DNA of 64,000 bases, taken from NCBI GenBank assembly GCA_011316305.1, contig SAUG01000035.1, positions 186,001 to 250,000 on the forward strand, given 5' to 3'. Each line of letters opens with the position of its first letter. Positions within the stretch are counted from its first letter, which is position 1. The notes under the pieces were generated by a model. It saw only the letters and a program-made list of their open reading frames with translations. It ran no database searches and was not told the origin of the DNA. Positions 24,111 through 55,459 of the stretch are shown here, one piece after another. A program made the position numbers and the translations under genes. Source of the stretch: Rusavskia elegans (Eukaryota; Ascomycota; Lecanoromycetes; Teloschistales; Teloschistaceae).

Positions 24111-24440
24111 AAGTCGGGTCGATTTTTTAATTTTAGATTCGAAATTCGATCCGACGGCCAAACTATATATAATATAAATCTTTTTCTTTTTAATATATAT
24201 ATTTTCTATAATATTTTATTTATATAATTTATCTTTTAATTTACTTTTATTCGAATTTAGTTTTTTAATTATCGTCGTCTATATTCTAGTTATTATATTT
24301 TGTTTTAAAAAATCTTCTATCTTCGCTGTTTAGCTTCCGGGATTTAGTTCCAGACTCGGCGTATTAAACGGCAGATAGAAAGAATCGAAGCTAGTATAGA
24401 ACTAAAATATTAAATATAGTCCTATATATTATAACTAAAA

Positions 24441-25181: not shown

Positions 25182-26934
25182 TTATTCTAGCATCGCCATC
25201 AGATCAATTTCCTTCTCCTCCCTACGCCGCACCTTGATCGTTGCCGCCCGATTCGACATGTTCGCTCCCGCAGATTCCCGTATATATTCTGGCGAAGCTT
25301 CATCCACCTGGAGATCGAATTCAAGCAAGAAGAATACCAGCGCCAGCTTTAGCTCTGTCACAGCGAGGAAGCGGCCTGCCCATTGACATTCAGCATTGGT
25401 CTTTCCCTTTGGCTTGGAAAAAAAGACGTACCTGGACATGCCCATGAACCGTATCCGAATTGGATCATATTGGTCGAGAGCCCTGTATATGAAAAACCAT
25501 CGTTGTGCTCGCCTCGGAGACGGAGGAAACGACGTGCATCAAAGACGTTGGGGTTGGGATATACAGATGGATCCATGTTGTTCCCGGCAAAGGTGACGAA
25601 TGCGCCTTTCGGAAGGACGGTGCCGTCGGAGAGGATGCTTTTGCGGGTCACGATGCGGCGTAAAGGAGCTGTAATGCCGTGTCAGTCTGCTGAGGAATAG
25701 AGGTTGTTGCGATGGCTTCACACACCGATGCTATTCTGAGCGATCACGAGTACTGGATCAGTAAGTAGTTCGAGGAAGATGTATCTTGTATCGAACTTAC
25801 GGGAAGCATCCTTTGTGACTCCTTCAAAAAACTATCCATCAAATGCAGCTTGGCGAAGACATTCTTATTCCACCCTCCTTCTTCCGTCAACACCCTTACA
25901 ATCTCCTCCCTTAACGGCTGCACAACATCGGGATGCTTGCAGAGATCTAAGACGGCCACGTTCATCGTCTCTGTGGTATTGTGTACCGCACCAAGCGTCA
26001 AAAGCATCTGCGAACCAACGCAATCTATGTATTGCCCATAGCGCCGGCTCGCCTCCAGCAACCACCCAAGCGTGTCACCGACCTTGAGAGACTTGTACTC
26101 ACCGGCAGCGATCAGCCGTTGGCGCTTCTCAATCATAGGTTTGATCATCTTATTAGCATCTGCGCATTGCTTGCGCACAATCTTGCCCTCGGGGAACCAG
26201 AAGCGATGCGCCCACGGCCGCCAGAAAGGTGAGCAGGCGCGAAGCCTTGCCGATGCCCTGAAGGCATTGAACGTATAGCTTCTGACGACATCAAGCCATT
26301 TGCGGTCCCGACAGGCGTCTCGGCCAAGGAACAATAATGTCGAGAGACGGGCGACCATCTCCTCGCAGACCGGCTGCATGGCTACAGGATGCCACTCACC
26401 ATTTGCGGCGTTCTTCGAGGGCATAGATGCGTCAATAACAAGGGCTGCTTCAGAGGCTAGCTCCTTCGTCATCGCGAGCATCGCAGCGTTGACCTTTCCA
26501 CGCACGACATGTCGGATTGGTTCTGGGTACTTTCTCATCGCTTTGAATCCTATCATACCAGGGTAAGTCCAGAAATGCTCTGTTGAGAAGGCTTTTTGTG
26601 CATCCAAGCCCTTTTGTGCATCCAGATCCTTGTTAGCTTTGATTTCCTCCAGGAATCGGTTTGGGGCGACAATCTTGGGACCATTGCCCGTCATGATCTG
26701 GAAGAAGCCGTCATGGGTGACTTCACGGCCTCGAAAGATTGTCTCTGAGGCGTGTTCTGTCCAGCTAGTCGCAGCGTCGAGGCCCTCCAATTGGATCAGG
26801 GGAAAATCGCGCCATGGTTTGGTCGGAGCAACCAGAGATAAGTATACTCGAAACAAGACGAAGGCCGCACCGAGGAGTAACAGAAGCTGCGCAGCCAAAA
26901 TGCTGTCACTAATAACGCCCACGGCGAAGGACAT
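25182..26934 (-). CDS. Cytochrome P450 monooxygenase
   Basis: Haem-thiolate monooxygenase, probably oxidising the cluster intermediate at the ER membrane. Model on the minus strand: exons 26934-25801, 25735-25726, 25668-25432 and 25375-25182, giving 524 aa. All junctions have GT-AG ends. Visible are an N-terminal membrane anchor (about residues 12-35, Leu/Ala-rich), an I-helix block with GAVHNTTE, the ExxR helix in FLKESQR, and, across the last intron, the haem loop FGYGSWACPGRFLA with its Cys ligand. Length is normal. Exon 2 is a 10-nt microexon needed to join MLP to NSIAPLRR. Residues LDAQKG/LDAQKA are an in-frame 18-bp duplication. The gene is divergent from the PKS and shares its 577-bp upstream region, which supports co-regulation. 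Substrate unknown. Confidence 0.93.
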
Positions 26935-27511
26935 GGTATGAATTGCCTCGCAATGGAAGAGGAAGTGAGCCTGGAGGGGTGAACTGAACCGAGTATGTCG
27001 ATATCCAACGCCAACCGATTTATTAACGTCGGGACGTCAGGAAAGGACTGGAAGCCGTAAAGATTCGTGATGCTCGAACGAGGTGCATTAACAGCAACTT
27101 TCGTCCTCGGCGATGCGAATCAAAGACAGCAGCAAGCCGATTAGCCGACGTTACCTGTGCTAGGCGGACAAAGTTCTCCCTGAGGCCACTCTGACCGGAC
27201 TAATGACGGCATATGCTTGCTTACTCCTTGAAATAATAAGGTATGAATTGATTGCTAAGGCTGACAATGTCCGATTAAAGCTGACTGAGATCTAGCCGGA
27301 TTGGGCAATATTATTACACTGAGCTTTTCTCACACAGGGCACACACAGTGAATAGGAGTCATACCTTGTCGACCTACCGTATACAAGTACACACTACACC
27401 ACGTTACCGTATAGAGAGCAACAACAGAATTGGTCCTACCACCTCTACCACACTTCTGGTGTATCTATTTTTTATTCACTGCTCCCCAGGGACCCCATCT
27501 AAATAGCCAAA
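26935..27511. promoter_or_regulatory. Bidirectional promoter region P450/PKS
   Basis: 577 bp between two divergent start codons with no coding sequence. GGACGTCA near 27030 resembles a bZIP/CRE-type site, but this is only a single motif match. No clear TATA box was identified. Confidence 0.5.
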
Positions 27512-30500
27512 ATGGTGTTTGAAACCATGGACAACGGAGGACGGCATAGTAGGGTAGATGGCAGTGTAACCGGCAGACGGGAAGCAGAAGCCATCCCAGT
27601 GTTATTCGGACCGCAGGGTACAGTCACACGCGAGTCATTGCTCGAGATGCGCAAATTCCTGCGAGACAACCCAGCCTTGGATTTCCTTTCGACGACAATC
27701 TCCGAACTCCCAGCCCTCTGGCCGGCCATTCTCGACGTTTGCCCTGGGCTAGACAAGATTCCAGCGAAGACGAGGTTGAATGAACTCGTCTGTTTCTTTT
27801 TTGAAGGAGGAGACCCAGCGGCCATATTATCCTCAGAGCCGCTCCCCACGAACAATATCATAATGAGCCCATTGACGGTGATATCCCAGATCATTGATTT
27901 TTGGAAGCTCACTCATGGCTGCTTCTTCGACAACATCGACGGCCACCATCCATCAATCATATCAGGTGTGCAGGGATTCTGCCTGGGCTTCTTAACCGCA
28001 ATGTCTGTCTCCTGTTCGCGAAGTGAAGCCCAATTTCAAGCTCTGTCTTCGAAAGCGGTGCGTCTGGCCCTGTGCCTCGGAGCCTGGATCGATCTCGATG
28101 CACTCAGCCACAACGTGTCTGAATGTGCATCGGCCATTGCAGTTCGATGGAAGTCGGATGCGCATTGGCAGCATCTGGAACGCACCATGGAGCTGTATAC
28201 TAGAGTTAGTACCCATCAGTCATTGACGTTACTCACAGTCCCAGCTCATACAAGATATGATAGGCCTACATCTGGTGTCACACTGATGCGAAAACCGTAA
28301 CCATCTCGCTCCCAGAATGCGACACGGTTCCGTTCATGTCGGATCTGGCCCGATTGAATGTGCCCGCGATGTTGCTCGCAGTACGAGGACGCTGGCATCA
28401 CCGCCATAATCTCCCCGGACTACGTGACCTTTTAAATCTCTGCCAGCATGACGAACGTTTCCAGTTCCCCGATGCCGATGCCCTGAATAGCGCTCTTCTT
28501 TCCAACATCAACGGGGAACCCATCACGCAGGGATCATTGCATAGCATCGCCCTGCAGTCCATTCTCACCGAGCAATCCCGATGGGATCTGATTTTTGATA
28601 CTTGGTTGCGCGAGGACCGAAGCTTTGGTTACTTCATGATTGGTGAAAAGGTCATTGTCCCCCGAATCGTCAACAACGGATCGTCTGACGCCGCCGCTGT
28701 ACCGTTACCGCCGCCAGCAACATCCACACCAGCAGCAAAAATGCTCGAAGATCAACAAGAAGCCAGTCTCCCCGACTCTGCAATTGCCATCATTGGCATG
28801 GCCTGCAGGTATCCTGATGCCGACTCGGTGGAGGAGTTCTGGGACCTGATCAACGCTGGGAAATGCGTGATTCGACAGTTTCCCGAGGATCGCTTCCAAC
28901 CATCCCGTCTCAGTCGTGAACCAAAGGGACCGTTCTGGGGCGGCTATGTTCGGGAGTCAGATGTATTTGACCACCAATTCTTCGGCATTTCGGGCCGTGA
29001 AGCAAAGTCCATGGACCCCCAGCAGAGGATGTCTCTGGCGGTGGCTTACGAAGCGATGGAATCCGCGGGATACTGCGGCCTTCGCTCCGGTCAATTTGAT
29101 CGAGACGTCGGATGCTACGTCGGGGTCGCCAACGACGATTACGATTGCAACGTGGCTTCACACCCGATCAATGCTTTCTCGCTGACGGGCACTTTGAGAT
29201 CGTTCATTGCCGGTCGAATCAGTCATTTCTTTGGATGGACCGGACCTGCTGTCACGCTGGACACGGCATGCTCTGCCGCAGCTGTCGCCATTCATACAGC
29301 TTGCAGGGCACTTCAAGCCAACGATTGCTCCATGGCCTTGGCGGGAGGCGCTTGTGCCATGACCAGCTCCCGCATGACGCAAAATCTGATTGGGGCCGGG
29401 TTCTTGAGTCCAACGGGAGCGTCCAGGGCATTTGACGTCGATGCGGATGGGTATTGTCGTGCTGAAGGAGCAGGCCTGGTGGTCTTGAAGCGCCTTGGAG
29501 ATGCACTACGGCATGGGGACTCCATCCTCGGCGTCATCACCGGATCGGCCGTGAATCAGGGATCCAACTCCTCTTCCATCATCGTGCCAGATACACGATC
29601 CCAGCTCGCCCTTTACGATAAGGCATTGACCATGTCTGGTACCCTTCCTGCGGAGGTAAGCTACGTAGAAGCTCATGGCACGGGTACTCAGGTCGGCGAT
29701 CCGATCGAGTTCAAGAGCATCCGGGAGACATTCGGGGGCGTGCACCGACGGGACGACGTCTTTGTCGGTTCCGTCAAAGATAACATCGGCCACACGGAAG
29801 CTTCGTCGGGCGTGGCCTCGCTGTTGAAAACGATTTTGATGATGCAGAAGAAGACAATACCCAAACAAGCCAATTTCGCTCGTCTCAACCCCAAGATTGA
29901 GCCCCTGGGCAAAGACCACGTCGTGATACCGACGCAGTCGAGCGAGTGGAGAGCCGGGAAACGACGGATCGCATTGATCAACAATTATGGTGCCTCCGGA
30001 AGCAACGCAGCTCTTGTCCTTCAGGAAGCCACGACAACCCTTTCTCCCACCGTCTCCTCTCGGGCTTGTTCTGACTATCCTATATACATTTCCGGAAAGT
30101 CGACGGAAGCCGTTCGCTCCTACTGTGATCGCCTGAGAACATTCCTCTCGACGGATGATAATTGGTGCCTGCAAGATATCGCTTACAATCTGGCCATCAA
30201 ACAGAACCGGGATTTCGAACACTCCCTAACAATGACCACTTCCACTATGGAGGAACTTTCGAGCCAACTCGAGCAGGCCGCATCCGACGCCACATCTACC
30301 GAGCTCCAAATAAGATCCAGCCACCAGCGGGGTCCCGCCGTCGTGCTCTGCTTTGGTGGTCAGGACGGTAAGATGGCACATATCTCGAAAAGCCTGTACG
30401 ATAACTGCGTACTCTTGCAACACCACCTCGTGAGTTATGACTGCTGGACTTAATTGGGATCTTTTTGCTGATATATGATCTCCTCTAGGCTGAGTGCGAG

Positions 30501-33500
30501 TTGGCTTGCACACAGGAACTAGCCCTCCCTAGTGTCTTGTTCCCAATCATTTTCAACCCTGGCCCGATCGAGGACCTGGTGACTTTGCACTGTGCCCTCT
30601 TCTCGATCCAGTATGCGTGCGCCAAATCATGGCTGGACGCTGGCTTGAAGCCCGACAAACTCATCGGGCACAGTTTCGGTCAGCTGACTGCCTTGTGTGT
30701 GGCTGGATCGCTGTCCCTTGTCGAGGCAGTCCGACTCGTTGCGCAGCGTGCCTGGCTGCTGCAGACACACTGCGGCCCTCCCCACAATGGACTGATGCTG
30801 GTCGTGGAGGGAAAGCCATCGGACGTGGAGCATCTCCTCCGTCTCGCTGAGCAGCAGCAGCAGCAGGGCTTTTCGGCCGATATTGCATGCTACAACGGCC
30901 CTCAAAGCTTCGTTGTTGCCGGTAACGAGACGTCTATTCAGGCAGTCGAAGAAGCAGCATCACTACTATCAGGCGCATGCCGTTTCCGGACGATACGCTT
31001 GGAGAACAGCCACGCGTTTCATTCACAGCTCCTGGATGGTATCATTCCCGGTCTGCTCCAGGCAGCTGAAGAACTTCATTTTGAAGCCCCTGCGATACCG
31101 ATCGAAGCATGCGTCCACAACGATGATGATGATTGGAACAACACGATCACTGCAGACAAAATCGCCCAACATACTCGTGCCCCTGTTCACTTTATGGACG
31201 CCGTCAGGAGGATCGAACAGCAAGCCCGGAATGGCCCGGTGATCTGGCTCGAAGCAGGCTCAGGGTCGCCAATTATACCCATGATCAAACGAGCCGCCGT
31301 TAATCATCTCGATCAGCATGTCTACATCGCCACACCTCTCCGATATGATGCGAATGCCCAGCTCAACCTCGCAAATGCTACATGCCGTCTATGGTCTGAC
31401 GGGGTGAGAGCGCAATTCTGGCCATTTCACGCCTATCAGCGCTCATCATACGACTGGGTTAATCTACCTCCGTACCAGTTTGCTAAGACCCGTCATTGGC
31501 TAGATTATGAACCGGCGGTGGCCGTCTGGAAGGAGAAGTCTATCACGGGCCCTGACGCGGAGTTGGGTAATAATGCCGAATTGATTCGACGACTCCCTAC
31601 CAACCATCATCAACCTCATCAAGGTGGGGGCAAGGACGACGCCGCTCTCTTCGAAATCAACCCCAAGCATGAGCTCTATCAGCTTGGCACGCAGGGACAC
31701 GAAGTCGTCGACCAGAGCCTCTGTCCAGCATCAATGTATACGGAATTCGTCCTCGCAGCCTCCCGCTTGTTAACGCATGCTGAGACGGCTTTGGTGCCGC
31801 GCGTATCAAGACTGGCGATGTCTTCGCCTCTCGTACTCAACCCGGTTGGGCGAGTCTTCTTGAAGTTGCAAGTAGAAGAGAAGCCAACGTCGTGGAACTT
31901 CTCAATCTACAGTCATGACGAGCAAACCCCGGCGACGATCACAACACACGGCACGGGACGCATCACGTTGGTTTCCGAGGAGTCCAGCAGCAGCAGCAGC
32001 ATCCTGTCGTCTTCGACCATCAGTCCCTTTCGCTCACTTCAAAGCCTAATACTTCAACGGTGTCGCGAAATCGAAAACTCTCCCATGTCCATCGGCTACA
32101 AAGGTCCTACAGTCTACAAAGCATTCCGGCCAGTGGTAACTTACGTAGACTACTACCGCGGAATTCAAAGTATCTTCAACCTAGGCCAGGAAGCCGTCGC
32201 CCACATCACCATGCCGCCAGCACGACCACCCAATATGGGAACGGGCGTCTGCGACCCAGTGCTGATCGACAGCTTCACGCAAGTCTCGGGCGTTTTAGCC
32301 AACTGCTTTGCGCTAGGCGAAGGGAATCCAGGCGAGATGTGGGTGTGCAACTTCATCGGCGACATTGAGCTAAGCCGAGAATTCATTCAGCACGCAAGGG
32401 AGGAGAAACACGCGTGGACGGCGTATGGCAAGTATGAGACGCCTAGTCCTAAAAGGCTGACGTGCGACATTTTCGTGTTTGAGCCGCGGTCGGGGAACAT
32501 CGTCTTTACAATCAGGTCGATTGAGTTTCAGAAGGTCTCGATCAAGTCTTTGTCGAAGATTCTTGGGAGGCTCAATCACGATGATAGCCGCAAGAAGACG
32601 ATGCCAGCATCACCAACACCACCAGCCCAGGATCCATGGGCTCCAGCAGAAGAAAAGGTGCAGGTGCCTGACATAACTACGAGATCATCGACGACAAGCA
32701 CAATAAATAGAGCAGCAACAGGTGCAACTAGAATTGTGGATCGCTTTGGATCTCAGTCAATGCAAGAGGAACTCGAACTCTCTGCCAGAAGAGTCACAGC
32801 GGATATATCCATAAATGAAACTCATACGGCATTATCATCGCCATCGTCACTGGATAACATCCGAGAAATGTTAAAAGACATCCTGGAGATCCCCCTCGAG
32901 CAGATTTCTCCCAATGCACTTCTCGAGAACCTTGGCATCGACTCTCTCATGGCCACGGAGCTCTTCTCCGAGATGAACAAGCGCTTTGCCGTTTCCATCT
33001 CACATTCGGAATTCGCCACCATCTCTGACGTTCAAGGTCTCGCTCGGTTGGTGTTGATATCGACTACTCCCGAAACATATCGTCGCCGCGAAGGTCCGGC
33101 ATCATCGACTTCAACCTCAAGATCACCCTCTTCTTCGACTGAGACGGCCTCAACACGCCGATCCACCGCAGAACCATCTCCTCGCTCATCGCTGTCTCCT
33201 GCTACTTCATCTACTCCGATTGAGAGAGAAACGATCGTTTACGGCAAACGGGATGGGATCTCCCTGTCAGCTGATATCTATTATCCCAATGGTTATAATG
33301 GACTGGAAAAGCCGCTCCCGATTGGTGGGTCAACACCATCCTTGTTCAATTGTTCTTGACTTGGGATGGAGAACACAATCGTCGCGGACACTGATGCTCG
33401 GATCATCTATATAGCTCTAATGATCCACGGCGGAGGTCACGTCATGTATACACGCAGAGATATTCGCGACGACCAGACCCAAATCCTTTTGCATGCAGGA

Positions 33501-34340
33501 TTCCTACCCATCAGCATCGACTACAGACTGTGTCCCGAGGTCTCACTCCTAGAAGGTCCCATGCGGGACGTCTGTGATGCACTGTATTGGGCACGAAAAA
33601 TCCTACCTACTCTTACACTCCCCGGACGCCCGGATATCCACGCCGATGGGGACAGAGTCGTGGCCGTGGGGTGGTCGTCTGGCGGCCATCTCGCCATGTC
33701 GCTGGGATGGATGGCAGCTTCATCGGGCGTCAGACCTCCAGAGGCCGTGCTCGTGTTCTACTGCCCCACCGACTATGAAGACCCGTTCTGGTCTCGACCC
33801 AATCGACCGTTTAACCAGGAACCTGTCCCGCCGCCTTCTTCAGCTGAGTCGGAATGCTACGACTATCTCCACGAAGGACTCTATGACAAGCCAATCGTGG
33901 GATATTCTCCTGGTGCGTCGAAACGTGCGTTGGGAGGCTGGATGTCGCTCGACGACGCCCGCTCGCGCATCATTCTTCACATGAACTGGGAGGGTCAGGC
34001 CTTGCCCATCCTCATCAACGGACTGTCCAAAAAGCGTGTCCCAAAGAAACTTCCAGCTCCATCCATTGAGGAGATCCGCAACATCAGTCCTTTGGCACAG
34101 ATCCGCGCCAGTAGATATACAACGCCAACCTTCTTTATCCACGGAACACGAGACGATCTTGTCCCTTGGCAGCAGTCGCAAAGAACGTACGAGGCGCTGA
34201 TCGAGAAGGGAGTACCCGCACAATCGGTGGTTTTGGAGGACGCCTTGCATCTGTTTGACATGTATCGCAACTTTAAGCGGAATGAGCGTGCCATCAAAGC
34301 GGTCAATGACGGCTTTGAATTTCTTCGAGCGTATATCTAG
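27512..34340 (+). CDS. Non-reducing polyketide synthase (SAT-KS-AT-PT-ACP-hydrolase/TE)
   Basis: Builds an aromatic polyketide from acetyl and malonyl units. Exons 27512-28204, 28264-30429, 30489-33324 and 33415-34340 give 2206 aa. Domains in order: SAT (GFCLG, Cys157; GRWHH, His about 276), KS (about 402-830; DTACSAA, Cys567; EAHGTGT; NIGHTEA), AT (GHSFG, Ser1015), product template (about 1330-1640; QGHEVVDQ, His1357; LIDSF, Asp1547), one ACP (LGIDSL, Ser1772), a Ser/Thr/Pro-rich linker, then an alpha/beta-hydrolase (HGGGH; GWSSG, Ser1986; late Asp in TRDDLVPW and His in ALHLF). The hydrolase resembles the releasing domain of methylated-orsellinate (DMOA-type) synthases, but no C-methyltransferase is seen and the protein is shorter than those enzymes. 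All catalytic residues are present. The product is inferred only as an aromatic acid or related compound. Confidence 0.95.
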
Positions 34341-34350
34341 ACAATACATG

Positions 34351-34380
34351 TTATTACAACAGGAGAGTACCGTTGCCATT
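34351..34380. repeat. 30-bp direct repeat, left copy
   Basis: Matches 34489-34518 at 27 of 30 positions. The right copy is the 3' end of the aldolase gene (last codons and stop). The left copy lies on the other side of the MITE-like insertion, so the gene end appears duplicated. Confidence 0.8.
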
Positions 34381-34382
34381 CG

Positions 34383-34483
34383 CCAGTGGGTGCAATGACT
34401 CGTGGTCCACCTATAGGGCAACAAACGACCTGAACTACCGGTAGGTACCGAGTGCGTGGGCCGTGAGTTGTTGCACCCACTGG
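34383..34483. mobile_element. MITE-like element, copy 1 (101 bp)
   Basis: Bounded by CCAGTGGGTGCAA and its exact complement TTGCACCCACTGG; the imperfect pairing extends to about 30 bp. The centre carries CTACCGGTAGGTACCGAG, shared with the second copy at 41468-41539. It sits between the convergent stop codons of the PKS and the aldolase gene, so it may affect both 3' ends. Confidence 0.85.
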
Positions 34484-34488
34484 TGATA

Positions 34489-34518
34489 CTATTACTACAG
34501 GAGAGTACCATTGCCATT
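34489..34518. repeat. 30-bp direct repeat, right copy (aldolase 3' end)
   Basis: Covers the TAG stop of the aldolase gene and the codons for its last residues. See the matching copy at 34351-34380. Confidence 0.8.
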
Positions 34519-45544: not shown

Positions 45545-45578
45545 CAAAACAACAAATCAAGATAATTTTTTCGCTATG

Positions 45579-48443
45579 CTATGCATTCCACCAAAGAGGA
45601 CGTATATCCAACGCCGTCTTCATCATAGACACATTCTCTGTCAATCTCGAACCACCCTCCTTTTTGATCATCTTCATCATCTGTCGTATCGTGACATTGT
45701 TGCTGAGGACATCTTGCACAGTGAGAACCAGACCTTCGTTTCGACAGCGCGCGACAAGGTCCATGGCTGAGAAGGAATCCCCGCCTAGTACAGAGAAACT
45801 TTCATCGACGCGGATGACATTATCCGTTGTGTTCTTCTTTTCGCTGAGATTGTCGTGTTTGTTGATGTTGAGGACTTGGTCCCAGATATTTTGTAATCGC
45901 TTCTCAACGGCAGCGTCATTATCGTCGTCGTTATGTTTTTCTGATTCATTAGGGCGGTCCTGCTGCATCACCTCTTCTTTTTCCTCTTCTTCTGCTTCTG
46001 TTTGGGGCAGGCTTTCCACCGTTGTCAGACTCTCAACAAACTTCTTCACCAAGACGCGATTCATCTTGCCCGAGATCAATAACGGAATATGTTGCACCAC
46101 CACCCACGCCTGAGGGAGCATGTACGATGGAAGTTTGTCGGATAGAAAACCCTTGATCTCCGCCACTTCTGCGGTGCATGATTCTTCAACCATAGAGATC
46201 GATATTTCTTCTTCGTTGTTCCCCTTGGTGACATTGTTGCTGCTGCTGATAGTGGTGGGAACCACCACAATCGCCACAAGTCGTTTCGCATATACTCCCG
46301 CGCTGGGCAACAAGACCATCGATTGCCGCACCAAAGGATGTGAAGCCAAATGATGTTCAATCTCTCCAATCTCGATCCGGCGGCCATGTAGTTTGATCTG
46401 TGTATCCTTGCGACCAACGAAACTCACCGTGCCGTCGTTGTTATACCTCACCAAATCGCCCGACTTATAGAATCTTCTTCTTTGCTCAGACTCAGACCGA
46501 GACTCCGATTCCATCCATTTCGGATTCTCAACAAAGTTTTGTTTCGTTTGCTCAGTATCCAAATATCCTCTTGCGAGCACAGGGCCTTCGATGAGTAATT
46601 CCCCAATACACCCCATGGGGACAAGGCGATTGTGATCGGTGCTTCTGGTAATCCATAATCGCGCTCCGTAACCATGTCCGATGTTATTCGCCTGGCTGTC
46701 AACTCTCAGACCCGTTTGTGCCGTACACCAGATCGTGCATTCAGAAGGCCCATACAACGCATTCAAAACCACTTTCCCCGCCCAACGCTCCAGATTCTCC
46801 TGTATAAGCGCCTCCCCGCCCAAAAGAAGCGTCAAAAGACAGGGTACATCCCTCGGGTAAAGAATGCGCGCGACGCTGGGAATTAAGCATGCCGTATTGA
46901 CATTCATGCGGACAATAGCTCCCGCTAGGTCATTGACACGTTCGTGTTCAGAAGGCACGCAGATGCAACCTCCTTGCGAGAGCGTGACGAAGATGTCGCC
47001 GAAGCTGAGGTCGAAGATGTAGGAGGCGAATTGGAGGACGCGGGAGGTGCTGGTGATGCGCATGGGGGAGGCGAGGGCGGAGACGGCGGTGCAGAGAGCG
47101 CGGTGTTCGATCATGATGCCTTTGGGGATACCGGTGCTGCCGGATGTGAAGTGTATGTATGCGGTGTTTGAGGGGATAACACGACATGCAGTGAGAGAGA
47201 GAGTCGTGGGAGGTAATGGAAGTTTTTCGAGGTACGTCGGATCCATTGCAACAATGTGCTTCCCCTGAAACATGTCTTCAAAGAGATGACGGTGTGTCGG
47301 CTGCACCAGTACCAAGGGGGCATTCGTAGCTTGGATAATGTTCTTAATGCGATTGATGGGATACGCCGGGTCGACGGCGACGAATGCTCCACCAGCCTTG
47401 AATATGGCCAGCATCGAAACCATAGCAATAGAGGACTTGTCGAAGCAAATGAGAACGGGTGTCTCTGGTACCACAACGCCCAGATGATTGGCAAGATGGT
47501 TCGCCAACTTCGTTGTGATAGTGTCAAGCTCACGGTAAGTGTAATCATGGCCATCCCATGAGCAAATGGCGGGAGCGTCGGGCGTTTTGAGGACGATCTG
47601 TTCGAACAAATGGTGGAAGCAAGCATCGACCGCGCTCGGGAAGGACTGGTTCCAATTCATCACTGTCTCATAGTCGCACCGGGTAAAGGTATCCAAGTCG
47701 CCAACAGTGGTGGATTGAGGACCCGCCGCGGCCAGGGTTTCGAGTATCGTTTGGGCGAAGGTATGGGCAATATGGGCCGTTCGTGCTGCTGAGAACTTGG
47801 ATGTATTTGTGTGGATTGCCACCGCAACGGAACCATCATCATTGATCGATGCTTGGGCTAGAATATGGAAGCCTCCATTATTCTGTGCCGTGATTCCTGA
47901 TTGCTCAGAAAGACGCCGTTTAACTTGTAGGGCCGAGTCGAATAGTGGGTGGCCTTCGAGGCTTACAAGTTCCTGCATCTCTGCAATACCAATGGGATAG
48001 TCTCGATGACGGGTCCGGGCATTGTCCTGGTGTCCCATCATGTCCACCATGATCTGGCCAAGTATGCGTTCAGCAGTAACTTGTGTACGGCAGATGAGGA
48101 TATGATCATCATCGGCACCATCGTCGCCCTCGAAAAATCCAAACGATACATCTTCAACGCCAGCGTAACAGGCCACGACGACAGCCCAAGCGGTTTGAAA
48201 AAGACTGTCTAGTGTAACCTGATGCTGAGAGCAAAAGTCCTGAACGGCACAATGGTTGACGTTGTCCAGCTTGACAATGGCATCCTGGAAGTCGCCGTCT
48301 TGTAGGGTGGTAGTTGTAGATGTACGAGGTCCATCGTCCTTAGGGAACAAAGGGAAGTAAGATGGCTTGAAGTCATGAAGGAAGGTTTTCCAGTACTCGC
48401 TGGTCCGTTCGTGCAAAGACGCGTGACGCTGATTGTCTTTCAT
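45579..48443 (-). CDS. NRPS-like protein (partial C - A - T)
   Basis: Adenylates an amino acid and holds it on its carrier domain. Single exon, 954 aa. Residues 1 to about 245 match only the second lobe of a condensation domain (begins EYWKTFL; no HHxxxDG motif is present). The adenylation domain (about 270-790) has HFTSGSTGIPKG, FDLSFGDIF, ALYGPSECTIW, YKSGDLVRY and GRKDTQIKLHGRRIEIGE, with the catalytic Lys in PLLISGKMNR. An acidic linker follows, then the carrier with Ser890 in LGGDSFSAM. There is no thioesterase or reductase domain; it stops about 60 residues after the carrier serine. The Asp in FDLS is the usual alpha-amino-binding Asp235, so an amino acid is the likely substrate. By hand alignment the pocket reads roughly D-L-F-C-L-G-L-I-W-K, which I cannot assign. 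Confidence 0.92.
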   Translation of the reverse strand: MKDNQRHASLHERTSEYWKTFLHDFKPSYFPLFPKDDGPRTSTTTTLQDGDFQDAIVKLDNVNHCAVQDFCSQHQVTLDSLFQTAWAVVVACYAGVEDVSFGFFEGDDGADDDHILICRTQVTAERILGQIMVDMMGHQDNARTRHRDYPIGIAEMQELVSLEGHPLFDSALQVKRRLSEQSGITAQNNGGFHILAQASINDDGSVAVAIHTNTSKFSAARTAHIAHTFAQTILETLAAAGPQSTTVGDLDTFTRCDYETVMNWNQSFPSAVDACFHHLFEQIVLKTPDAPAICSWDGHDYTYRELDTITTKLANHLANHLGVVVPETPVLICFDKSSIAMVSMLAIFKAGGAFVAVDPAYPINRIKNIIQATNAPLVLVQPTHRHLFEDMFQGKHIVAMDPTYLEKLPLPPTTLSLTACRVIPSNTAYIHFTSGSTGIPKGIMIEHRALCTAVSALASPMRITSTSRVLQFASYIFDLSFGDIFVTLSQGGCICVPSEHERVNDLAGAIVRMNVNTACLIPSVARILYPRDVPCLLTLLLGGEALIQENLERWAGKVVLNALYGPSECTIWCTAQTGLRVDSQANNIGHGYGARLWITRSTDHNRLVPMGCIGELLIEGPVLARGYLDTEQTKQNFVENPKWMESESRSESEQRRRFYKSGDLVRYNNDGTVSFVGRKDTQIKLHGRRIEIGEIEHHLASHPLVRQSMVLLPSAGVYAKRLVAIVVVPTTISSSNNVTKGNNEEEISISMVEESCTAEVAEIKGFLSDKLPSYMLPQAWVVVQHIPLLISGKMNRVLVKKFVESLTTVESLPQTEAEEEEKEEVMQQDRPNESEKHNDDDNDAAVEKRLQNIWDQVLNINKHDNLSEKKNTTDNVIRVDESFSVLGGDSFSAMDLVARCRNEGLVLTVQDVLSNNVTIRQMMKMIKKEGGSRLTENVSMMKTALDIRPLWWNA

Positions 48444-49108
48444 AGCCGCTGTTATCGTAGATAATGATGGAGTAGTAATTACGGCCTTATCCTGCTGTTC
48501 TAGTTACGTATGAAAGGGAGGACTTCATGTACTAAGGGACAGACGGAAAATGGTCCACTCCCCACATGCCTCAGCATTATACATAGACTAAGAATACATT
48601 ATTGAGGCTGAATTTAGGTACCACTGCGGCCTCGGAGAGAAGAAACTGACGTACCCGATCGACATGCAGAATCCACCACCGGTAGACCGGCTTAGAGAGA
48701 TGGGCTGACAGACTATCTTCTTACAGTAATGCAAATGCGTGTATGTCAGCAAGTATATGCAGTCAATTTAGAGTATGACAAGCACATAGCTAGCGTGCAA
48801 ATGTGAAGTTATCAGCGCTTCACCAATGGGGCAAGACCGGAGAAGTTTAGCTTCCAGCCCATGGAGGTCTTCAACAAGTGATTATGAAATAAGTTGAGTA
48901 TGCAGTCAGAACGTGCGTCGGTCTCACATACTGTACTGCCGGTAGGCGGCGAAAGGCCCATTCCTACTCTGACTACTGTTTTCGTGCTGTTGTACCGTAC
49001 CTCGCTGTTAGATCTACTTATTCTTGCCTACGTTTTCGGCAGCCATATTTCTCTGCGTGAATCAATCATCCATCGAGGACTCAAGACTCACACGTGCCTG
49101 ACAGGAAC
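48444..49108. promoter_or_regulatory. Bidirectional promoter region NRPS-like/ATP-grasp
   Basis: 665 bp between divergent start codons. GTTACGTA at 48503-48510 resembles a bZIP (Yap/CRE-like) site. A short reading frame here (from 48,894) has no family features. Confidence 0.45.
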
Positions 49109-51212
49109 ATGTCCAATGTTATTGTTGTCAGGGGTGAAGACAAACAAGAAGGTACTGTAGATATCCTTTCCCTACATCGCCGACTCTTACCAAAACTTAC
49201 AATGTATTTGTATCAATACAGCCCGGTTCCAATGCAGCTGGTGCACGAGAGATGATAACACGACCGACTCATCTCGTACTACCCGCTGGCAAACCATAGA
49301 CGTCTTTTTCAGAGAAATCGCGAGGTCGACAGACTTTTCGTGGCCGAAGAAATCAGAAAATGCTCACCTCTTCATTGAGGTGTCCGCCAACAGGCACCGC
49401 CAAATCCATGAACGAGACTTTGGCTCTGCCGCCGCATTCCGATTTTTCTTCGACTGCCTCTCAGCTGCCAGCCATGACGATGAGCATGAGAGTGTCACCC
49501 GGCTGGTCGTACCGCGCTCTAGTGGGTATATTGTACGCTCCGACATCTTGTCTTTGCGCCTCCTTGACTGCTCTCTGGTGAAAAACGTTGTAGACTTTGC
49601 CAAATCACAGCAGTTCTTTGACGGCAAGCCCATCAGTGTTGATGCTGTTCCGAATGCCTTTGCAGCATCCGTTGGAGGCATGCTTTTGGTGAAGGAGAAG
49701 AAGAGAAGACAATACATCCATTCGAGTGCTGGAATTAGCAACGGAGTCACTGCTCGCGACTCGCTGCTGACTTCTCTGGATCATGAATTGCGCAATCGGC
49801 TGTCGTTCCTTTGGCTGTCCTCGCAACCCCCCTCGAAACGACGTCCTACTCTAGCCATCGTTGACGGTGGTCTTCGAGGTCCTGACGATGGAGGCACGGG
49901 AGGGAGCATATACACGGCAGCCGAAGCGCTAGGCATCGATATGGTCGTGTTCGACAACCCTGGGCATTGGGTGAATGGTTCGAAATACTGCCACTGGCGC
50001 AAAGCCTTCATTCCTCTCGAACTCCAACTCGAGCCTAATCCCGGATTTGCCAACCGTATTGCGGACGCAGTACGCTCGTATGAAGGCCACCTCGACGGAA
50101 TTTTGACCTTCCGCGACCATTACAAAGTTCCCGTTGCGGAAGCTGCCGTGCAATTGTCTTTACCAACATATCCTCCATCGGCCTACGCCATAGCCACGGA
50201 CAAGTTCAAGACGAGTGTCTCCGAGGGCCACATCGCATATCAAGCATCCAGCGCCGAACAAGCTGTCCGAATTGTGCAAGAGCACCATCTGGACTTCCCA
50301 CTCATTATCAAGCCCTGCAATGGCTTCCTCTCCGAGGGTGTCTTCCGCGTCGAGAATCTCCCACAGCTCGAGGCGGGTGCACAGGCCATCGATACCGACC
50401 GGCACGGGAAAGAATTTGTGATTGAAAAGTACTGCGAGGGTCCCGAAGTCGATGTCAACGTGGTACTCTGCGACGGGGAGGTGATCTTCTTCGAAGCATC
50501 GGATGATTTCCCCAAGAGCGCCGACGTCAACGGCCATGGCAACGTCAAGAACTTCATTGAACTTGCCAATGTCCTGCCATCCGTGCTGCCCGAGCACGAG
50601 CAGGGCCTGCTTCGAGACTCGCTTCGTCAAAGCTTAATTCGCATGGGTTTCGTGGACGGATTCTTTCACCTCGAAGCGCGTGTGGAAAACTCTAGCATGG
50701 AATACACGACCAAGAACCATGTCTTGGACATAAGAGAACGCGATAGCTTGGAAAAGGGGGTAGCAGTACCATCAGCTTGGTTGATCGAAGCCAATCCACG
50801 ACCGCCGGGAATCCAAGCTTCGGAAGCGGTGAAGCATACATACGGCGTCGATTATTTTGGTCTCGCCCTGCTGTTCGCTCTCAACGACAAGCAACGGGCT
50901 AAGCAGCTTTCACACGCTTTTGTCCAAGGGCCACAGTACTGGTGCGAGATGGTTTTCATCCCTGTGGAGAAAGGCGGCGTGTATGAATCTGGCGACGTGT
51001 GCGAGGAGCTCTCTGCTCGGCGGCCCGATCTGGCCGATCATGTTTCGGGGAGTTTTTGCTTTCTAAAGAAGGGAGACCATGTGCCGGATCCCTTGAGGAC
51101 AGGGACCAATTCGTGGGTCGCGTATTTCAATGTCTATTCGAGAGAGAGTCGCGCGCAAGTGTTGGAACTTGCTGATTGCGTGAGACGGGAGGTGACGTTC
51201 TCTATCGTGTAG
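49109..51212 (+). CDS. ATP-grasp carboxylate-amine ligase
   Basis: Activates a carboxylate as acyl phosphate with ATP and joins it to an amine, as in carnosine synthase-type ligases. Exons 49109-49151 and 49222-51212 give 677 aa. The ATG at 49109 was chosen because MSNVIVVRGEDKQE splices in frame (GAAG|GTACTG...TACAG) onto ARFQCSWCTRDD, while the frame just before 49222 has no in-frame start. Visible are TDKFKTSV at the start of the grasp domain, FPLIIKPCNGF (nucleotide-binding Lys), KEFVIEKYCEGPEVDVNVV, and the metal-binding end FFHLEARV with WLIEANPRPPG. About 230 N-terminal residues are poorly conserved, as in eukaryotic members. Likely to form the amide bond in the product together with, or instead of, the NRPS-like protein (inference). 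Confidence 0.92.
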
Positions 51213-51678
51213 AAGAGGAGGACGACGACTTCATATCTCAACTACAACAATACCGATCAAGGCCAATCCACATGTTTCCTCGGCTTTGAGCGAGTCAGGG
51301 CTAGGCGGGTTGGATTTGGTTCGAATACCAAACAGGGTCTAATTAACAGGCGGCCCAGGTACATGTCCAGAATGCGTTGGCTGACTTTCAGAAGTCTGAT
51401 GACTGCAGCCACATGCAGCTGACAGATTAGCAACAATTATCCCTCGACAGACTACCTTATGGAGAAGTCATCAGCGCTAACGCGTCAGGGGGTCTGTTAC
51501 GGGAGGCAAGGGACTTTTACATGATTATTGACGATCCGACTCCCATCAAAACTTTCATATCGTTGACTGACTCTTGTAAATGTTGTTTGTCAGATAGGCA
51601 GGGAGCGCGCATGGTGAAAAACCGATAAGAGACTGAAATTTGATCAATTAGTCCATCAACTTGCTCTGTCCTGAAAGA
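51213..51678. other. Intergenic, promoter of the acyl-CoA ligase gene
   Basis: 466 bp between two plus-strand genes. No RNA gene, repeat or clear promoter motif was seen. Confidence 0.5.
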
Positions 51679-53310
51679 ATGGACTATACCACTCGCATCC
51701 TTTCTCATCCTCCAGCAAATATCCATTCTCCTGTCTTATTCGACGCTGATCGACCATATCGAACCGTTTCATGGGCTGAATACGCATCCGCCATCAAACG
51801 AATCGCGGTCGGGCTGCGCTCCCTGGGTGCCGTCGAGCACGACGGCGTCGGCCTGCTCAGCCGCAATGAGATATACTATTATGTGCTCGCAGACGGTGCA
51901 ATCGCAGCAGGTGCGACGTTTATAGGCATCCCGCCGTCGGACAGACAGGACAAATTGGCCACGCACTTGGCAGTGGCGCAGGTGAAATGGCTGTTCGTCT
52001 CCCCAGAGCTCTTAGAGTTGGCTTTGACGTCGGCGGCAACCGTGGGCATTGCCAAGTCTCATATACTCATATTTGATCCGCCTGGCCTAGAACCTTACAA
52101 GCATGACAACGGCCGATCCCGTTTCAGTAGCCTTCTTGATGCAGATGAGAGTCTCTGGCAGGATCCGAACCACGGCAAAGACCCCAGAACACTGACGGCC
52201 TTGCGGTTGTTCACCAGCGGCACCACAGGATCAGTCAAGGCGGCAGAGCTTTCCCACGCGGCGCTCGTGACAAGACTGGATGCGCAGGACTTTGTCCCAT
52301 CGCCGCGCGACCGCGCACAGCTCCAATTCATCAACCTTTCCTCCGCCGGCGGCCAGATGATTTGCCAGCGCGCTTTTGCCGGAGGGCTACCTGCCTACAT
52401 TTCCAACTACGGCGACGAATTAAGCATCATCGACAGAATCCAGTCGTGTGGCATCTCGGTTGTCCAGTTGCCACCTCGGACTATGGAGGCCATAACGGCC
52501 GCTATCAACACGGGAATCCGGTCTCGCGAGCATCTTCAGTCCCTGAACACCGTCCTGGTCGGTGGAGCAACTTCTCGCAAAGAGGGAGTCGACGAATTCG
52601 CAGCCGTTTTACCAAGTCACGTCCTATTGCGATCGGGTTACGGATCGACCGAGGCCGGAATCATCGCCATGACCCCTGCAAGCCTCGACGCCCCCTGGAG
52701 GCCAGGTCCGGGTTATGTTGGCTTTATCCCACCCGGTATGGAGTTGTGCGTGATTGACCACGAGACACTCCAAAAAGTCAGCTCCGACACCGAAGGCGAG
52801 ATCTGTGTCCGCGGCGCATCAATGTTCAGCCGATATTGCAACAATCCGGCGGCTACAGCCGAGACGTTGCTCCCCGACGCGGAGGGAGGAATTCCTTGGA
52901 TCAGAACGGGAGATCGAGGGTACTTGGACCCGCATAGCGGCCAGCTCGCCCTGACCGGCCGCTTCAATGAAATGTTCACAGTTAAGTTGGAGCGAGTTGT
53001 ACCCTCGGAAGTCGAGGCAGAGCTGCTGAAACATGCGTCGATTGTAGACGCCGCCGTGACGGCCACACGGGCGCAAGACATCGAGGGAGACAACGAGTGC
53101 ATAGCATACGTCGTGCGAAGAAATGGTTCCGAATTGACAGCGCGCCAAGTGGTGGAATTCATTGCGGCGAGGCTGTCTAATGACAAAGCCCCAACGGGCG
53201 GCGTCGTGTTTTGCGAGAGTATCCCACGGAACCTCATGACGAAAGTCATGAGGCACAAGTTGATTGAGCTGGAGGCTCTGCCTGGGTCAGCCAGATACAT
53301 CAAGATATAG
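51679..53310 (+). CDS. AMP-dependent acyl-CoA synthetase/ligase
   Basis: ANL superfamily enzyme that adenylates a carboxylic acid and usually transfers it to CoA. Single exon, 543 aa, starting at ATG 51679 (MDYTTRILSHPP). Core motifs: FTSGTTGSVKAAELSH (phosphate loop), GYGSTEAG, IRTGDRGYLD, GRFNEMFTVKLERVVPSEVE (hinge) and the C-terminal catalytic Lys region NLMTKVMRHKL. The usual GRxKExIKxxG hinge reads FNEMFTVKLE, slightly divergent. No peroxisomal C-terminal signal (ends RYIKI). It resembles 4-coumarate-CoA-ligase-like fungal cluster enzymes. Substrate unknown: it could activate the PKS acid, or a beta-keto acid used by the gamma-synthase-like enzyme (inference). Confidence 0.92.
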   Translation: MDYTTRILSHPPANIHSPVLFDADRPYRTVSWAEYASAIKRIAVGLRSLGAVEHDGVGLLSRNEIYYYVLADGAIAAGATFIGIPPSDRQDKLATHLAVAQVKWLFVSPELLELALTSAATVGIAKSHILIFDPPGLEPYKHDNGRSRFSSLLDADESLWQDPNHGKDPRTLTALRLFTSGTTGSVKAAELSHAALVTRLDAQDFVPSPRDRAQLQFINLSSAGGQMICQRAFAGGLPAYISNYGDELSIIDRIQSCGISVVQLPPRTMEAITAAINTGIRSREHLQSLNTVLVGGATSRKEGVDEFAAVLPSHVLLRSGYGSTEAGIIAMTPASLDAPWRPGPGYVGFIPPGMELCVIDHETLQKVSSDTEGEICVRGASMFSRYCNNPAATAETLLPDAEGGIPWIRTGDRGYLDPHSGQLALTGRFNEMFTVKLERVVPSEVEAELLKHASIVDAAVTATRAQDIEGDNECIAYVVRRNGSELTARQVVEFIAARLSNDKAPTGGVVFCESIPRNLMTKVMRHKLIELEALPGSARYIKI

Positions 53311-53797
53311 TCTCGGAGTAGCTAGTTGAACAATGCCCATTGGTCATTCAACCTCCACTCGTCTCGAATGGCTCATGCAAGACTTCTGAGCCGGTAGACA
53401 TTAAAGCACCTGGTCTCGGTAAACCTATCAGATCGTAAAGGTATACCCATTGCTAATTTGGGAGCTCGCCTCAATAAATTCGCCCGACATAGAAACCTGG
53501 TGAGTTCAATAGTATTCGCGGATTCTTTTGTCAATATATATCCCAACTACCTCGATGTTTTTCCCGCTTGAGCGGTACCTTCAAATGTACTCGTGCGGCA
53601 CGCCCAGGACATAGCTGAGGTACCTCCACAGAACAATACAGTCACAAAATATTCCCGTGATAGTAGATAGAGCTTCGATAGCCGTATGGAGACGATTTCT
53701 GCAGAGATTAGAGATGGCGTGAGGAAGCCTAATTGGTTGTTCAAACGCCCGAGCAAAGACAAAGCTAATTCTCGAAAGAGCGATTACGAAGCACGCT
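53311..53797. other. Convergent intergenic region
   Basis: 487 bp between the ligase and aminotransferase stop codons. A 71-codon reading frame near 53,550 lacks any family feature. No repeat or terminator was recognised. Confidence 0.5.
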
Positions 53798-55459
53798 TCA
53801 AGTCTCTGACGTATAAGTCAACTCAAAGGACTCCCTCACCGCCTTTCCAAACCTCTTGATCGCCTCCTGAATCTGATCAAACGGCGCCGCCGCATACGTC
53901 GCGCGGAAGAAGATACCCTGCAACTTCTTTTCCCTGGCCGGACGAAACCATGACCCCTTCATCAATAATGTCTTCTGCTGGATAATCTCGTGAAAAATCT
54001 CCTCCTCAATCTCCTCCAGACTTCTTTGCGGGTAGCGCGGGTGCTTCGTGTGATCGAGACGCAGCCAGTAAAATATACCGGCCACGGGCATGACCCAGCT
54101 GACAATGCCTTTGGGCAGGTGCTGCTCGCAGGCTGCCAGCATGATGTTGCGGCGCGACGTGTATTCCATGCGCAGGTGGATCAACCAGTCGAGGTAGCCG
54201 GCGTGGCCCCAGTGGTCCACGAGCAGTTTGAATAGGACCAGCTGGCTAATGCCGGAGGGGCCCTGAGTAGAGAGTTCGGCGTGGGCGCGGTAGCGGTCGA
54301 CGATTTGTTCCGGAGCGGTGACCCATCCGGTGCGAGTGCCGGGAGCGACGATTTTGGAGAATGAGTCCATGCGGATGACGCGGCCGTCGGTATCCATGGA
54401 GAGGTATGATGGCACGAGCGCCTTGACAAAGTCATCGTGGGAAGTAGGGGGTACGGTGGCGGAGAAGTCTGGGCCGGTGTAGGGTTCCATCTGGAGAAAG
54501 TAGTAGGGCTCGTCTTCTATAATAATCAAGTCGTGCTTCTGAGCGACGGCGTAAATTTCTCTGCGGCGCTGGGCGGTCTGGGTGGCGCCGGTTGGATTCT
54601 GGCCGGTTGGTACAGTGTACACAAGGAAAGGCTTGGGTCCGCCTCGTTCCTTTTCATCCCAATCTATCAAGACATCGTCCAGATCGTCGGCACGCATACC
54701 GTAGTCGTCCATGGGAACGGCGGCAGTTTGCACGCCTAAGGGAGCGGCGGTTTCGACGGCGGCGACGAAGGTGTATTCTTCGGAGAGCATCCAGTCGCTC
54801 CGGTTGGCAAACATGCGGAGGGTCACATCAAGGGCAGAAGTAGAGCCGACGGTCATGGTACAACCCCAGTCCTGGTAAGGCGGATGGTGGATGAGCTCGG
54901 TATGTTCGGCGAGGTAGCGGAGAAGTTGGGCGGAGCCTTGGCCCTGACCGTACTGTAAAGCGGTTGCGACATCGATCTTGTCTTCGGCCATGTCGTGCTT
55001 GCCGGCCCGGAGGAGATAATGGTCCTGTGTATGGCCATTCTGGGAGATGCAGTTGGGGATATGAGGGACCTTGATGTCCAGCTCTTCGACGGGGAAGTTT
55101 TCGCTGGAAGGGAGGCCACCGCCAAGGGATATCAAGCCGGGAGTTTTGAGCCATTTGGCGGCGGCTATCATCGAATTGCCTTTTCGACCTTTGGCCTCAG
55201 TCGTCAATCGATCTAGAACGCGTCAGTTGATATGAAATGAAGATTCTTGAAGGCAGTACATACGGCCCCAGCACTTGGCCTTGGCCTTGTGCAAACGGCC
55301 GGAACGGCCCTTGACGTCGGCTAGAGCACCGGCGCCAGCAACCAGTTTCCCGGAGGCGGCGCGGCGCTTGGCAATAGATTGAAGGGTCAAGCGGTTGGGG
55401 ATGGTGAAGGTGGAAGTGTCGATCTCAGGGTCAACCTCAATGACGGTATGGGGCGCCAT
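53798..55459 (-). CDS. Aromatic amino acid aminotransferase-like (Aro8 type, class I/II)
   Basis: PLP aminotransferase interconverting aromatic (or alpha-aminoadipate-like) amino acids and 2-oxo acids. Exons 55459-55264 and 55212-53798 give 536 aa. The splice joins KAKCWG to HRLTTEAKGRKG, matching the conserved RLTxEAxxRK block. After it come PGLISLGGGLPSSENFP, LQYGQGQGS, GSTSALD, YTVPTGQNPTGAT, EDEPYYFLQ and the PLP lysine in DSFSKIVAPGTRTGW. It could serve either housekeeping metabolism or the cluster. It lies next to the acyl-CoA ligase, so it marks the cluster edge or belongs inside. Transamination of the FMN enzyme's 2-oxo acid product is an attractive but unproven role. An in-frame ATG lies 15 nt upstream (55474). 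Confidence 0.9.

Follow-up and report, generated by a model that had tools for sequence, protein, structure and literature searches.

Eleven contiguous genes of Rusavskia elegans, located at 25,182–55,474 of the window (the whole stretch of 64,000 nucleotides that was analysed), may form one apparently intact fungal gene cluster whose product would combine an aromatic polyketide acid with amino acids through ATP-grasp/amide-synthetase steps. We regard this as a good possibility and put it forward tentatively. The original prediction had described one contiguous run in which an NR-PKS stands together with amino-acid chemistry, three PLP enzymes and three carboxylate-activating enzymes; all eleven genes were found in that run (gene models, Pfam) and this composition is supported. 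We infer that an aromatic acid would be amide-joined to amino acids made by the cluster.

Organization of the locus

The genes and their surroundings are listed by window coordinates.

24400..63100, no strand: GC island, ~38.7 kb, ~0.52 GC (GC and RIP indices)
25182..26934, minus: cytochrome P450, 524 aa, four exons (Pfam p450 3.5e-33; ExxR; heme motif FGYGSWACPG)
27512..34340, plus: NR-PKS, 2206 aa, SAT-KS-AT-PT-ACP-alpha/beta-hydrolase, the last in TE position (Pfam domains, motifs)
34495..35790, minus: threonine-aldolase-like PLP enzyme, 402 aa (Pfam Beta_elim_lyase 1.3e-65)
36729..38533, minus: MFS exporter, 579 aa (Pfam MFS_1 7.5e-48, TRI12 6e-16)
39557..41412, plus: FMO-type flavin monooxygenase, 535 aa (Pfam FMO-like 2.6e-42; FAD and FMO motifs)
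41811..43112, minus: FMN-dependent oxidase, alpha-hydroxy-acid oxidase family, 388 aa (Pfam FMN_dh 6e-112)
43673..45544, plus: CndF-like PLP gamma-replacement enzyme, cystathionine gamma-synthase family, 581 aa (CndF 8zif, 411 bits)
45579..48443, minus: NRPS-like protein, 954 aa, single exon, with the C-terminal half of a condensation domain, adenylation and thiolation (Pfam, motifs, PDB A domains)
48900..51212, plus: ATP-grasp ligase, 689 aa, ATPgrasp_N and ATP-grasp_4 (Pfam)
51679..53310, plus: AMP-binding ligase, 543 aa, candidate amide bond synthetase (Pfam AMP-binding 2.2e-47)
53798..55474, minus: Aro8-type aminotransferase paralog, 541 aa (PDB 6s8w, 610 bits)
56.9-58.5 kb, strand not given: extra Hrr25-type casein kinase 1 gene, inside the island
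60468..61726, minus: bANK-type regulator candidate, 397 aa, bZIP-like basic region and ankyrin repeats (Pfam ankyrin)

Gene content, order and motifs were read directly from the gene models, with uncertainty at a 10-nt exon of the P450, the third intron of the FMO, a GC-AG intron of the gamma-synthase and exons 1 and 2 of the ATP-grasp gene. All eleven proteins were searched against Pfam, seven of them were compared with PDB and five with NCBIfam. Since the best Pfam domain per gene reached E-values from 6e-112 (FMN oxidase) to 8e-14 (ATP-grasp) across all eleven genes, the gene set is beyond chance. Catalytic motifs had been claimed for each assignment, and those searched for are indeed present in most of the proteins, but HHxxxD in the NRPS-like protein, a methyltransferase motif in the PKS and a hand-written MFS pattern were not found, the latter despite the strong MFS_1 match.

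The predicted start of the run at 25,182 was recovered, whereas its end lies here at 55,474; the earlier figure of 55,459 agrees with a start of the aminotransferase at a later codon. The genes include four divergent pairs, and the convergent gamma-synthase and NRPS-like genes are spaced by only 34 bp. The GC island is flanked by RIP-like AT-rich blocks on both sides. It continues beyond the eleven-gene run to ~63.1 kb, and the bANK-type candidate and the extra casein kinase gene both lie past the originally predicted range (25182..55459). Between the genes of the island, twenty ORFs of 71–143 aa were searched against Pfam as well, without any match.

For all three PLP enzymes and for the ATP-grasp enzyme the genome holds at least one further copy, the best at 35–58% identity. 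The cluster copies are therefore not the sole ones, which fits dedicated rather than housekeeping roles for them. A scan of prokaryote contigs with two short peptide patterns gave 50 pattern matches, none of which was confirmed as a relative; this would count weakly against a recent bacterial origin.

Polyketide synthase, oxidases and exporter

As for a fungal non-reducing PKS, the SAT, KS, AT, PT and ACP domains were all found, with no KR or ER (Pfam, motifs). The protein carries the motifs GFCLG (in its SAT domain), DTACS, GHSFG, GHEVVDQ, GIDSL, HGGG and GWSSGG. Weaker domains are the SAT (2.4e-7) and the PT region, which was matched through a dehydratase(-fold) model (6e-7). Neither a C-methyltransferase nor a reductase domain was detected with Pfam, and the linker between ACP and hydrolase measures only ~70 residues. 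DMOA-type NR-PKSs have the layout SAT-KS-AT-PT-ACP-CMeT-TE with an esterase-like TE; the PKS does not match this type, since no C-methyltransferase domain precedes the hydrolase.

PLP enzymes and FMN oxidase

The threonine-aldolase-like enzyme scored 175 bits against L-allo-threonine aldolase 3wgb (PDB) and 221.7 bits against the GntG family, under the cut-off of 230 (NCBIfam). Its other genome copy (C143) is 46% identical. The aminotransferase shares 58% identity with the C188 copy, which scored higher against 6s8w (682 versus 610 bits).

The gamma-synthase belongs to the same PLP gamma-replacement family as CndF of the citrinadin pathway and is 43.0% identical to it (231/537 aligned residues), versus 35.7% identity to the exon pieces of the C145 copy (185/518). 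Over 505 columns, 87 residues are common only with CndF and 57 only with C145. Judged by these alignments, CndF, a fungal enzyme of specialized metabolism, is the closer relative of the enzyme; the second cystathionine gamma-synthase of the genome, putatively the primary one, stands further off. Its divergent neighbor is the FMN oxidase, not an imine reductase such as CndE of citrinadin biosynthesis. The gene adjacency of an FMN oxidase and a PLP gamma-replacement enzyme resembles the Fub7/Fub9 picolinate module, although the best structures for the oxidase are ordinary lactate/hydroxyacid oxidases (up to 305 bits, PDB).

Carboxylate-activating enzymes

The NRPS-like protein contains the motifs A3, A5, A7, A8 and A10 and, with GGDSF, a T domain (Pfam 2.5e-7). 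Its condensation match covers only positions 190–435 of the 456-position profile, and motif and Pfam searches detected no HHxxxD and no R or TE domain. With this partial condensation domain and no HHxxxD, the protein does not qualify as a multimodular NRPS, which would have an active condensation domain. Alignment to PDB A domains gave, by eye, the code DLGLLGLIWK, which we take to resemble a glycine code and did not count as evidence.

For the ATP-grasp protein the sole PDB match at E≤0.001 was a weak one of 42 bits to the L-amino acid ligase BL00235 (3vot); a paralog (C175) is 38% identical. An AlphaFold model of 657 of its 689 residues, built on a two-sequence alignment, reached a pLDDT of 33.6 and a pTM of 0.25 and was discarded.

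The AMP-binding ligase keeps the adenylation motifs A3, A5 and A7 and the A10 Lys, but alignment to 4CL and luciferase shows leucine in place of the A8 glycine. Among the matches listed, all five structures read K-Y-K-G-F/Y-Q-V where the ligase has T-V-K-L-E-R-V. Twelve genome relatives reach the A8 motif, two of them without alignment over it; the ten that can be read all keep the glycine. The lysine equivalent to luciferase K443 is changed as well, which carries little weight because it is kept in only three of seven gaplessly aligned relatives. The A8 glycine has a role in CoA-ligase chemistry. Its replacement suggests adenylate-only, amide-forming chemistry, and no N-acyltransferase domain able to use a CoA ester was found among the eleven proteins (Pfam). 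The nearest solved structures are 4-coumarate-CoA ligases, with a top score of 134 bits for 4CL against 58 bits for 6sq8/6h1b, presumably the bacterial amide synthetase McbA. The available text of an amide-synthetase paper (PMC11933536) contains nothing on the A8 glycine, the thioester or the lysine point.

Proposed pathway and related systems

From this gene set we infer the following steps. The NR-PKS would produce an un-methylated aromatic acid, freed by its own terminal hydrolase domain. The CndF-like enzyme would turn an activated homoserine into a vinylglycine ketimine, to which it would add a carbon nucleophile; once the product has cyclized, the FMN oxidase may oxidize it in the direction of a pyridine or dihydropyridine carboxylic acid, following Fub7/Fub9 logic. 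The Aro8 paralog and the threonine-aldolase-like enzyme might provide further amino-acid or aldehyde building blocks or shorten them, with the P450 and the FMO performing putative oxidations. One or two direct amide bonds would be made by the ATP-grasp and AMP-binding ligases, as in E-64, while the NRPS-like protein could carry a further aminoacyl unit. Export would fall to the MFS protein, and the bANK-type gene is a possible regulator.

The hybrid reading is supported by contiguity, the divergent pairs, the 34-bp spacing and the RIP-bounded island, by the further genome copies, the CndF affinity, the A8 change and the lack of an N-acyltransferase domain, and, in the accessible parts of the papers, by the precedents E-64 (PMC12568646), CndF/Fub7 (PMC10367076) and fusaric acid (PMC10967133). 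Counted against it are the lack of a common promoter motif, the top score of the ligase for 4CL, the closeness of the FMN oxidase to ordinary oxidases, and the single weak PDB match and low pLDDT of the ATP-grasp protein.

The E-64 clusters cp1/cp2 encode the ATP-grasp enzyme Cp1B, reported to lack detectable identity to other characterized ATP-grasp enzymes, and the amide bond synthetase Cp1D; NRPS-independent amide formation is called rare among fungal natural products (PMC12568646, available text). By gene content, our cluster likewise unites an ATP-grasp enzyme with a stand-alone AMP-binding (ANL) ligase. In contrast to E-64, whose pathway is described in that text without a PKS, it has an NR-PKS and is without an Fe/2OG epoxidase. 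The Rusavskia ATP-grasp protein is of the ATPgrasp_N/ATP-grasp_4 type; Cp1B was compared by its description there only. CndF and Fub7 carry out gamma-substitution (PMC10367076, in the portion available), and citrinadins are spirooxindole indole alkaloids according to the part seen of PMC8260726. In the fusaric acid cluster, FUB7, FUB8 and FUB9 combine a PLP O-acylhomoserine enzyme, an NRPS-like and an FMN-dependent enzyme (PMC10967133, available text). A PLP gamma-type enzyme, an NRPS-like protein and an FMN enzyme are clustered here too. The locus differs in its NR-PKS and in that Pfam found no reductase in the NRPS-like protein. FUB1 is a reducing PKS, FUB8 has a reductase and Fub7 belongs to another subfamily. 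Balanol, considered as a relative, was dropped for want of supporting data; the one paper searched for the word makes no mention of it.

If true, the hybrid reading describes an aromatic fungal polyketide that stand-alone enzymes link by amide formation to an unusual amino acid of the cluster's own making; the CndF-like enzyme, with the oxidase as its partner, and the AMP-binding ligase, altered by nature, would both be of interest as biocatalysts. If ordinary, the cluster would still be one among many uncharted clusters of a PKS-rich fungal genome.

Alternative readings

The main rival, which we consider unlikely, is a viridicatumtoxin-type pathway in which aldolase and ligase build a nitrogen-bearing CoA starter for the SAT, with the ATP-grasp enzyme and the gamma-synthase acting elsewhere. 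According to the available text, the vrt cluster combines an NR-PKS with the threonine aldolase VrtJ and the acyl-CoA ligase VrtB (PMC4294208), to which the malonamoyl-CoA starter is attributed (PMC4591646); in both loci an NR-PKS, a threonine aldolase and an acyl-CoA ligase lie together with a P450 and an FMO. The GFCLG-bearing SAT domain and the nearness of the ligase to 4-coumarate-CoA ligases agree with such a starter; the lost A8 glycine, given its role in CoA ligases, does not. The Rusavskia PKS moreover has its own terminal hydrolase, whereas vrt relies on the separate thioesterase VrtG (PMC4294208, part seen). A separate prenyltransferase and methyltransferase are also part of vrt; Pfam found neither a discrete thioesterase nor a prenyltransferase among the eleven proteins. 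ATP-grasp is absent from the available text of PMC4591646, and CndF-like and FMN oxidase genes go unmentioned in the available text on vrt.

Rather improbable, in our estimate, are two adjacent pathways with separate products, an NR-PKS set (P450, PKS, threonine aldolase, MFS, FMO) and an amino-acid set (FMN oxidase to aminotransferase). The halves are separable on the map, and in eight candidate promoter/intergenic regions no k-mer (7–10) and no gapped 4+4 pattern exceeded its level in Markov shuffles. Co-regulation, on which the original prediction depends, thus has no support from promoter motifs. Tight packing within common island boundaries, the single exporter gene among the eleven and an amino-acid half without any other enzyme for an acid scaffold speak against separate products.

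That the cluster has already been characterized, in a paper or MIBiG record outside the literature searched, seems to us a slight chance, as a full-text search on parts of the set (most subscription papers and MIBiG outside its scope) returned no paper with the whole set. To this extent the claim that no known cluster has these genes is uncontradicted; the enzyme parts are of known types and novelty is not proven. Precedents for subsets do exist in the available texts on vrt (PMC4294208, PMC4591646), E-64 (PMC12568646) and fusaric acid (PMC10967133), so the label "unrecognised" needs qualifying.

Regulator candidate and casein kinase

Returning to the hybrid cluster, its regulator candidate has a basic region, RREQNRIAQRNHRRRR, identified by eye, and ankyrin repeats found by Pfam, which gave no bZIP match. 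True bANK regulators combine ankyrin repeats with a basic region that lacks a zipper. The apicidin F and HC-toxin clusters are accompanied by the bANK regulators Apf2 and ToxE (PMC4109984, portion available), but they yield cyclic tetrapeptides via NRPSs, and ToxE and Apf2 sites were not found in our eight intergenic regions. TGACGT occurs in three of the eight, but 21 times across the island.

It is very improbable, though conceivable, that the product is a protein kinase inhibitor with a novel skeleton, in which an aryl polyketide acid is bound as an amide, with no peptide assembly line involved, to a heteroaromatic amino acid made by the cluster, and that the casein kinase of the island is or was a self-protection copy. 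A literature search on kinase self-resistance gave no match. The island copy equals the C170 copy at 267 residues over the 274 codons compared, with synonymous sites saturated, and one of the seven changes, L to M, falls on the gatekeeper position (CK1-delta residue 82).

Gene content and layout of the cluster

Spliced gene models were built across the right-hand two thirds of the window. All eleven proteins were scanned against Pfam, five of them against NCBIfam, and seven were compared with PDB structures. Spliced models and Pfam together confirmed that the eleven genes named in the original prediction are all there and contiguous: P450, NR-PKS, threonine-aldolase-like enzyme (aldolase), MFS transporter, FMO, FMN oxidase, gamma-synthase, NRPS-like protein, ATP-grasp protein, AMP-binding ligase and aminotransferase. 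Four divergent pairs are formed (P450/PKS, MFS/FMO, FMN oxidase/gamma-synthase and NRPS-like/ATP-grasp), and the gamma-synthase and NRPS-like genes converge with 34 bp between them. The gamma-synthase frame joins well only via a GC-AG intron (GCATGT...CTGCAG) at window positions 43922-43995 (+). None of 20 ORFs (71–143 aa) drawn from gaps in the island gave a Pfam match.

Each assignment had been said to rest on visible catalytic motifs. In our motif search those sought were found, except in three proteins: the NRPS-like protein has a truncated condensation motif according to Pfam, no methyltransferase motif was detected in the PKS by motif search, and the MFS pattern, perhaps written too strictly, was not matched in the MFS protein.

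The cluster had also been described as unrecognised. We found no match to the whole gene set in one described cluster of the open-access literature, judged partly by term counts; this negative is insufficient to call the cluster unpublished, and its newness is limited to a fresh combination of known modules.

The island and its surroundings

The window belongs to contig C150 of the genome (44.16 Mb, 217 contigs), and the island extends from about 24.4 to 63.1 kb. GC content is 0.19–0.27 across the first ~24 kb of the window and 0.16–0.33 per kb in the adjoining 20 kb to its left and right. The composite RIP index was positive in the left blocks (+0.94 to +1.02) and in the four flanking 10-kb stretches (+0.89 to +1.03), but negative in the island (−0.58 to −0.73) and in seven other genomic stretches (−0.48 to −0.73). 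Composition is mixed over the final 1.4 kb of the window (RIP index +0.57). Features of the island and its borders are:

Window 1-24000 and 63100-64000, with flanking stretches L025, L026, L033 and L034: strongly AT-rich, RIP-like DNA flanking the island on either side and continuing through the 20 kb examined beyond each end of the window
Window 56900-58550 (+): extra Hrr25-type casein kinase 1 (CK1) gene, inside the island
Window 60468-61726 (-): gene for a protein with bZIP-like basic region and ankyrin repeats (bANK-type candidate), inside the island

The apicidin F and HC-toxin clusters are regulated by proteins of bANK build (PMC4109984), and here a candidate bANK-type gene shares the island with the cluster. 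Control of the cluster by this putative bANK-type protein is only a suggestion, because eight intergenic regions examined contain neither a common promoter motif beyond shuffles nor the known ToxE and Apf2 sites.

The island CK1 is identical to the copy on contig C170 at 267 of 274 compared residues, despite differences at 77% of synonymous sites (saturated), so either strong selection has preserved it or it was acquired from another source. Among its seven changes is L to M at CK1-delta position 82, known as the gatekeeper. It need not signal resistance, since human CK1-delta has Met there. One splice junction of the gene is out of frame as read. That it might be a self-protection copy is a long shot.

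Ligation chemistry

The ATP-grasp protein contains ATPgrasp_N and ATP-grasp_4 domains (Pfam). Its single relative in the PDB, a weak one, is the L-amino acid ligase 3vot. The neighboring AMP-binding ligase can be aligned to 4CL and luciferase. It has T-V-K-L-E-R-V in place of the K-Y-K-G-F/Y-Q-V seen in all five aligned structures, which comprise one ancestral luciferase and four 4CL entries, three of the latter very similar to one another. Asparagine replaces the hinge lysine of these structures, whereas the ligase retains the adenylation lysine close to its C-terminus.

Among 17 other matches to the ligase in the genome, 12 extend to the motif and all 12 were examined. Two (stretches L056 and L058) gave no alignment across the glycine motif and were left out; glycine was present in all ten readable relatives, seven gapless and three (L049, L054, L055) via a gap or shift. 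The hinge lysine is retained in five of the six gapless relatives covering the hinge. The lysine three residues ahead of the glycine is retained in just three of seven gapless relatives; its change in the ligase is given little weight.

In acetyl-CoA synthetase the same glycine-to-leucine mutation impairs thioester formation and spares adenylation. This favors direct amidation as the putative activity of the AMP-binding ligase. Against this stands that its best matches are CoA ligases. The strongest rival reading, drawn by analogy, is that aldolase and AMP-binding ligase would supply a starter as for viridicatumtoxin: that cluster likewise combines a threonine aldolase and an acyl-CoA ligase with an NR-PKS (PMC4294208), and the malonamoyl-CoA starter is credited to its aldolase and ligase (PMC4591646). 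Direct amidation has been shown for Cp1D in E-64 biosynthesis (PMC12568646); the parallel between our ligase and Cp1D is drawn from described chemistry.

The gamma-synthase and FMN oxidase pair

The closest PDB structure to the gamma-synthase is CndF (8zif, 411 bits), followed by BesB (123 bits). Identity is 43.0% to CndF versus 35.7% to the copy on contig C145, over the C145 exons read; among 505 common columns 87 are shared with CndF alone and 57 with C145 alone. The best solved relatives of the FMN oxidase in the PDB are lactate and hydroxyacid oxidases. Picolinate in the fusaric acid pathway is reportedly made by a two-enzyme cascade. CndF, Fub7 and AnkD are described as fungal enzymes acting via a vinylglycine ketimine (PMC10367076), and the last oxidation to fusaric acid is performed by the FMN-dependent FUB9 (PMC10967133); here an FMN oxidase is divergently paired with the gamma-synthase. 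By analogy, these precedents and the pairing suggest that the two enzymes may yield a cyclised, oxidised amino acid.

Other copies in the genome

The aminotransferase has a match on contig C188 (58%) and partial matches on C102 (44%) and C51 (36%). The C188 copy scored 682 bits over 476 residues against Aro8 (structure 6s8w) versus 610 bits over 520 for the cluster enzyme, so the latter is the more diverged of the two. The aldolase has one match, on C143 (46%), the gamma-synthase has exon fragments on C145 (37–48%) and a partial match on C207 (26%), and the ATP-grasp protein has one match on C175 (38% in the genome search, 35% in a separate alignment); these three cluster genes are therefore at least not sole copies. 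Judged by eye, the ORFs in the 30 kb examined on C175 resemble housekeeping genes of an ordinary kind, with no cluster partners among them. Paralogs of note are:

L028:312-2237 (-): stand-alone ATP-grasp ligase paralog (35-38%), amid ordinary-looking genes
L044:8162-9463 (-), on contig C6: second FMN-dependent oxidase of the same family as that of the cluster (53% and 38% over two stretches)

Ketoacyl-synthase exons gave 79 matches in roughly 35–40 places by eye on many contigs, some of which may be fatty-acid synthases; from these matches the Rusavskia elegans genome appears PKS-rich.
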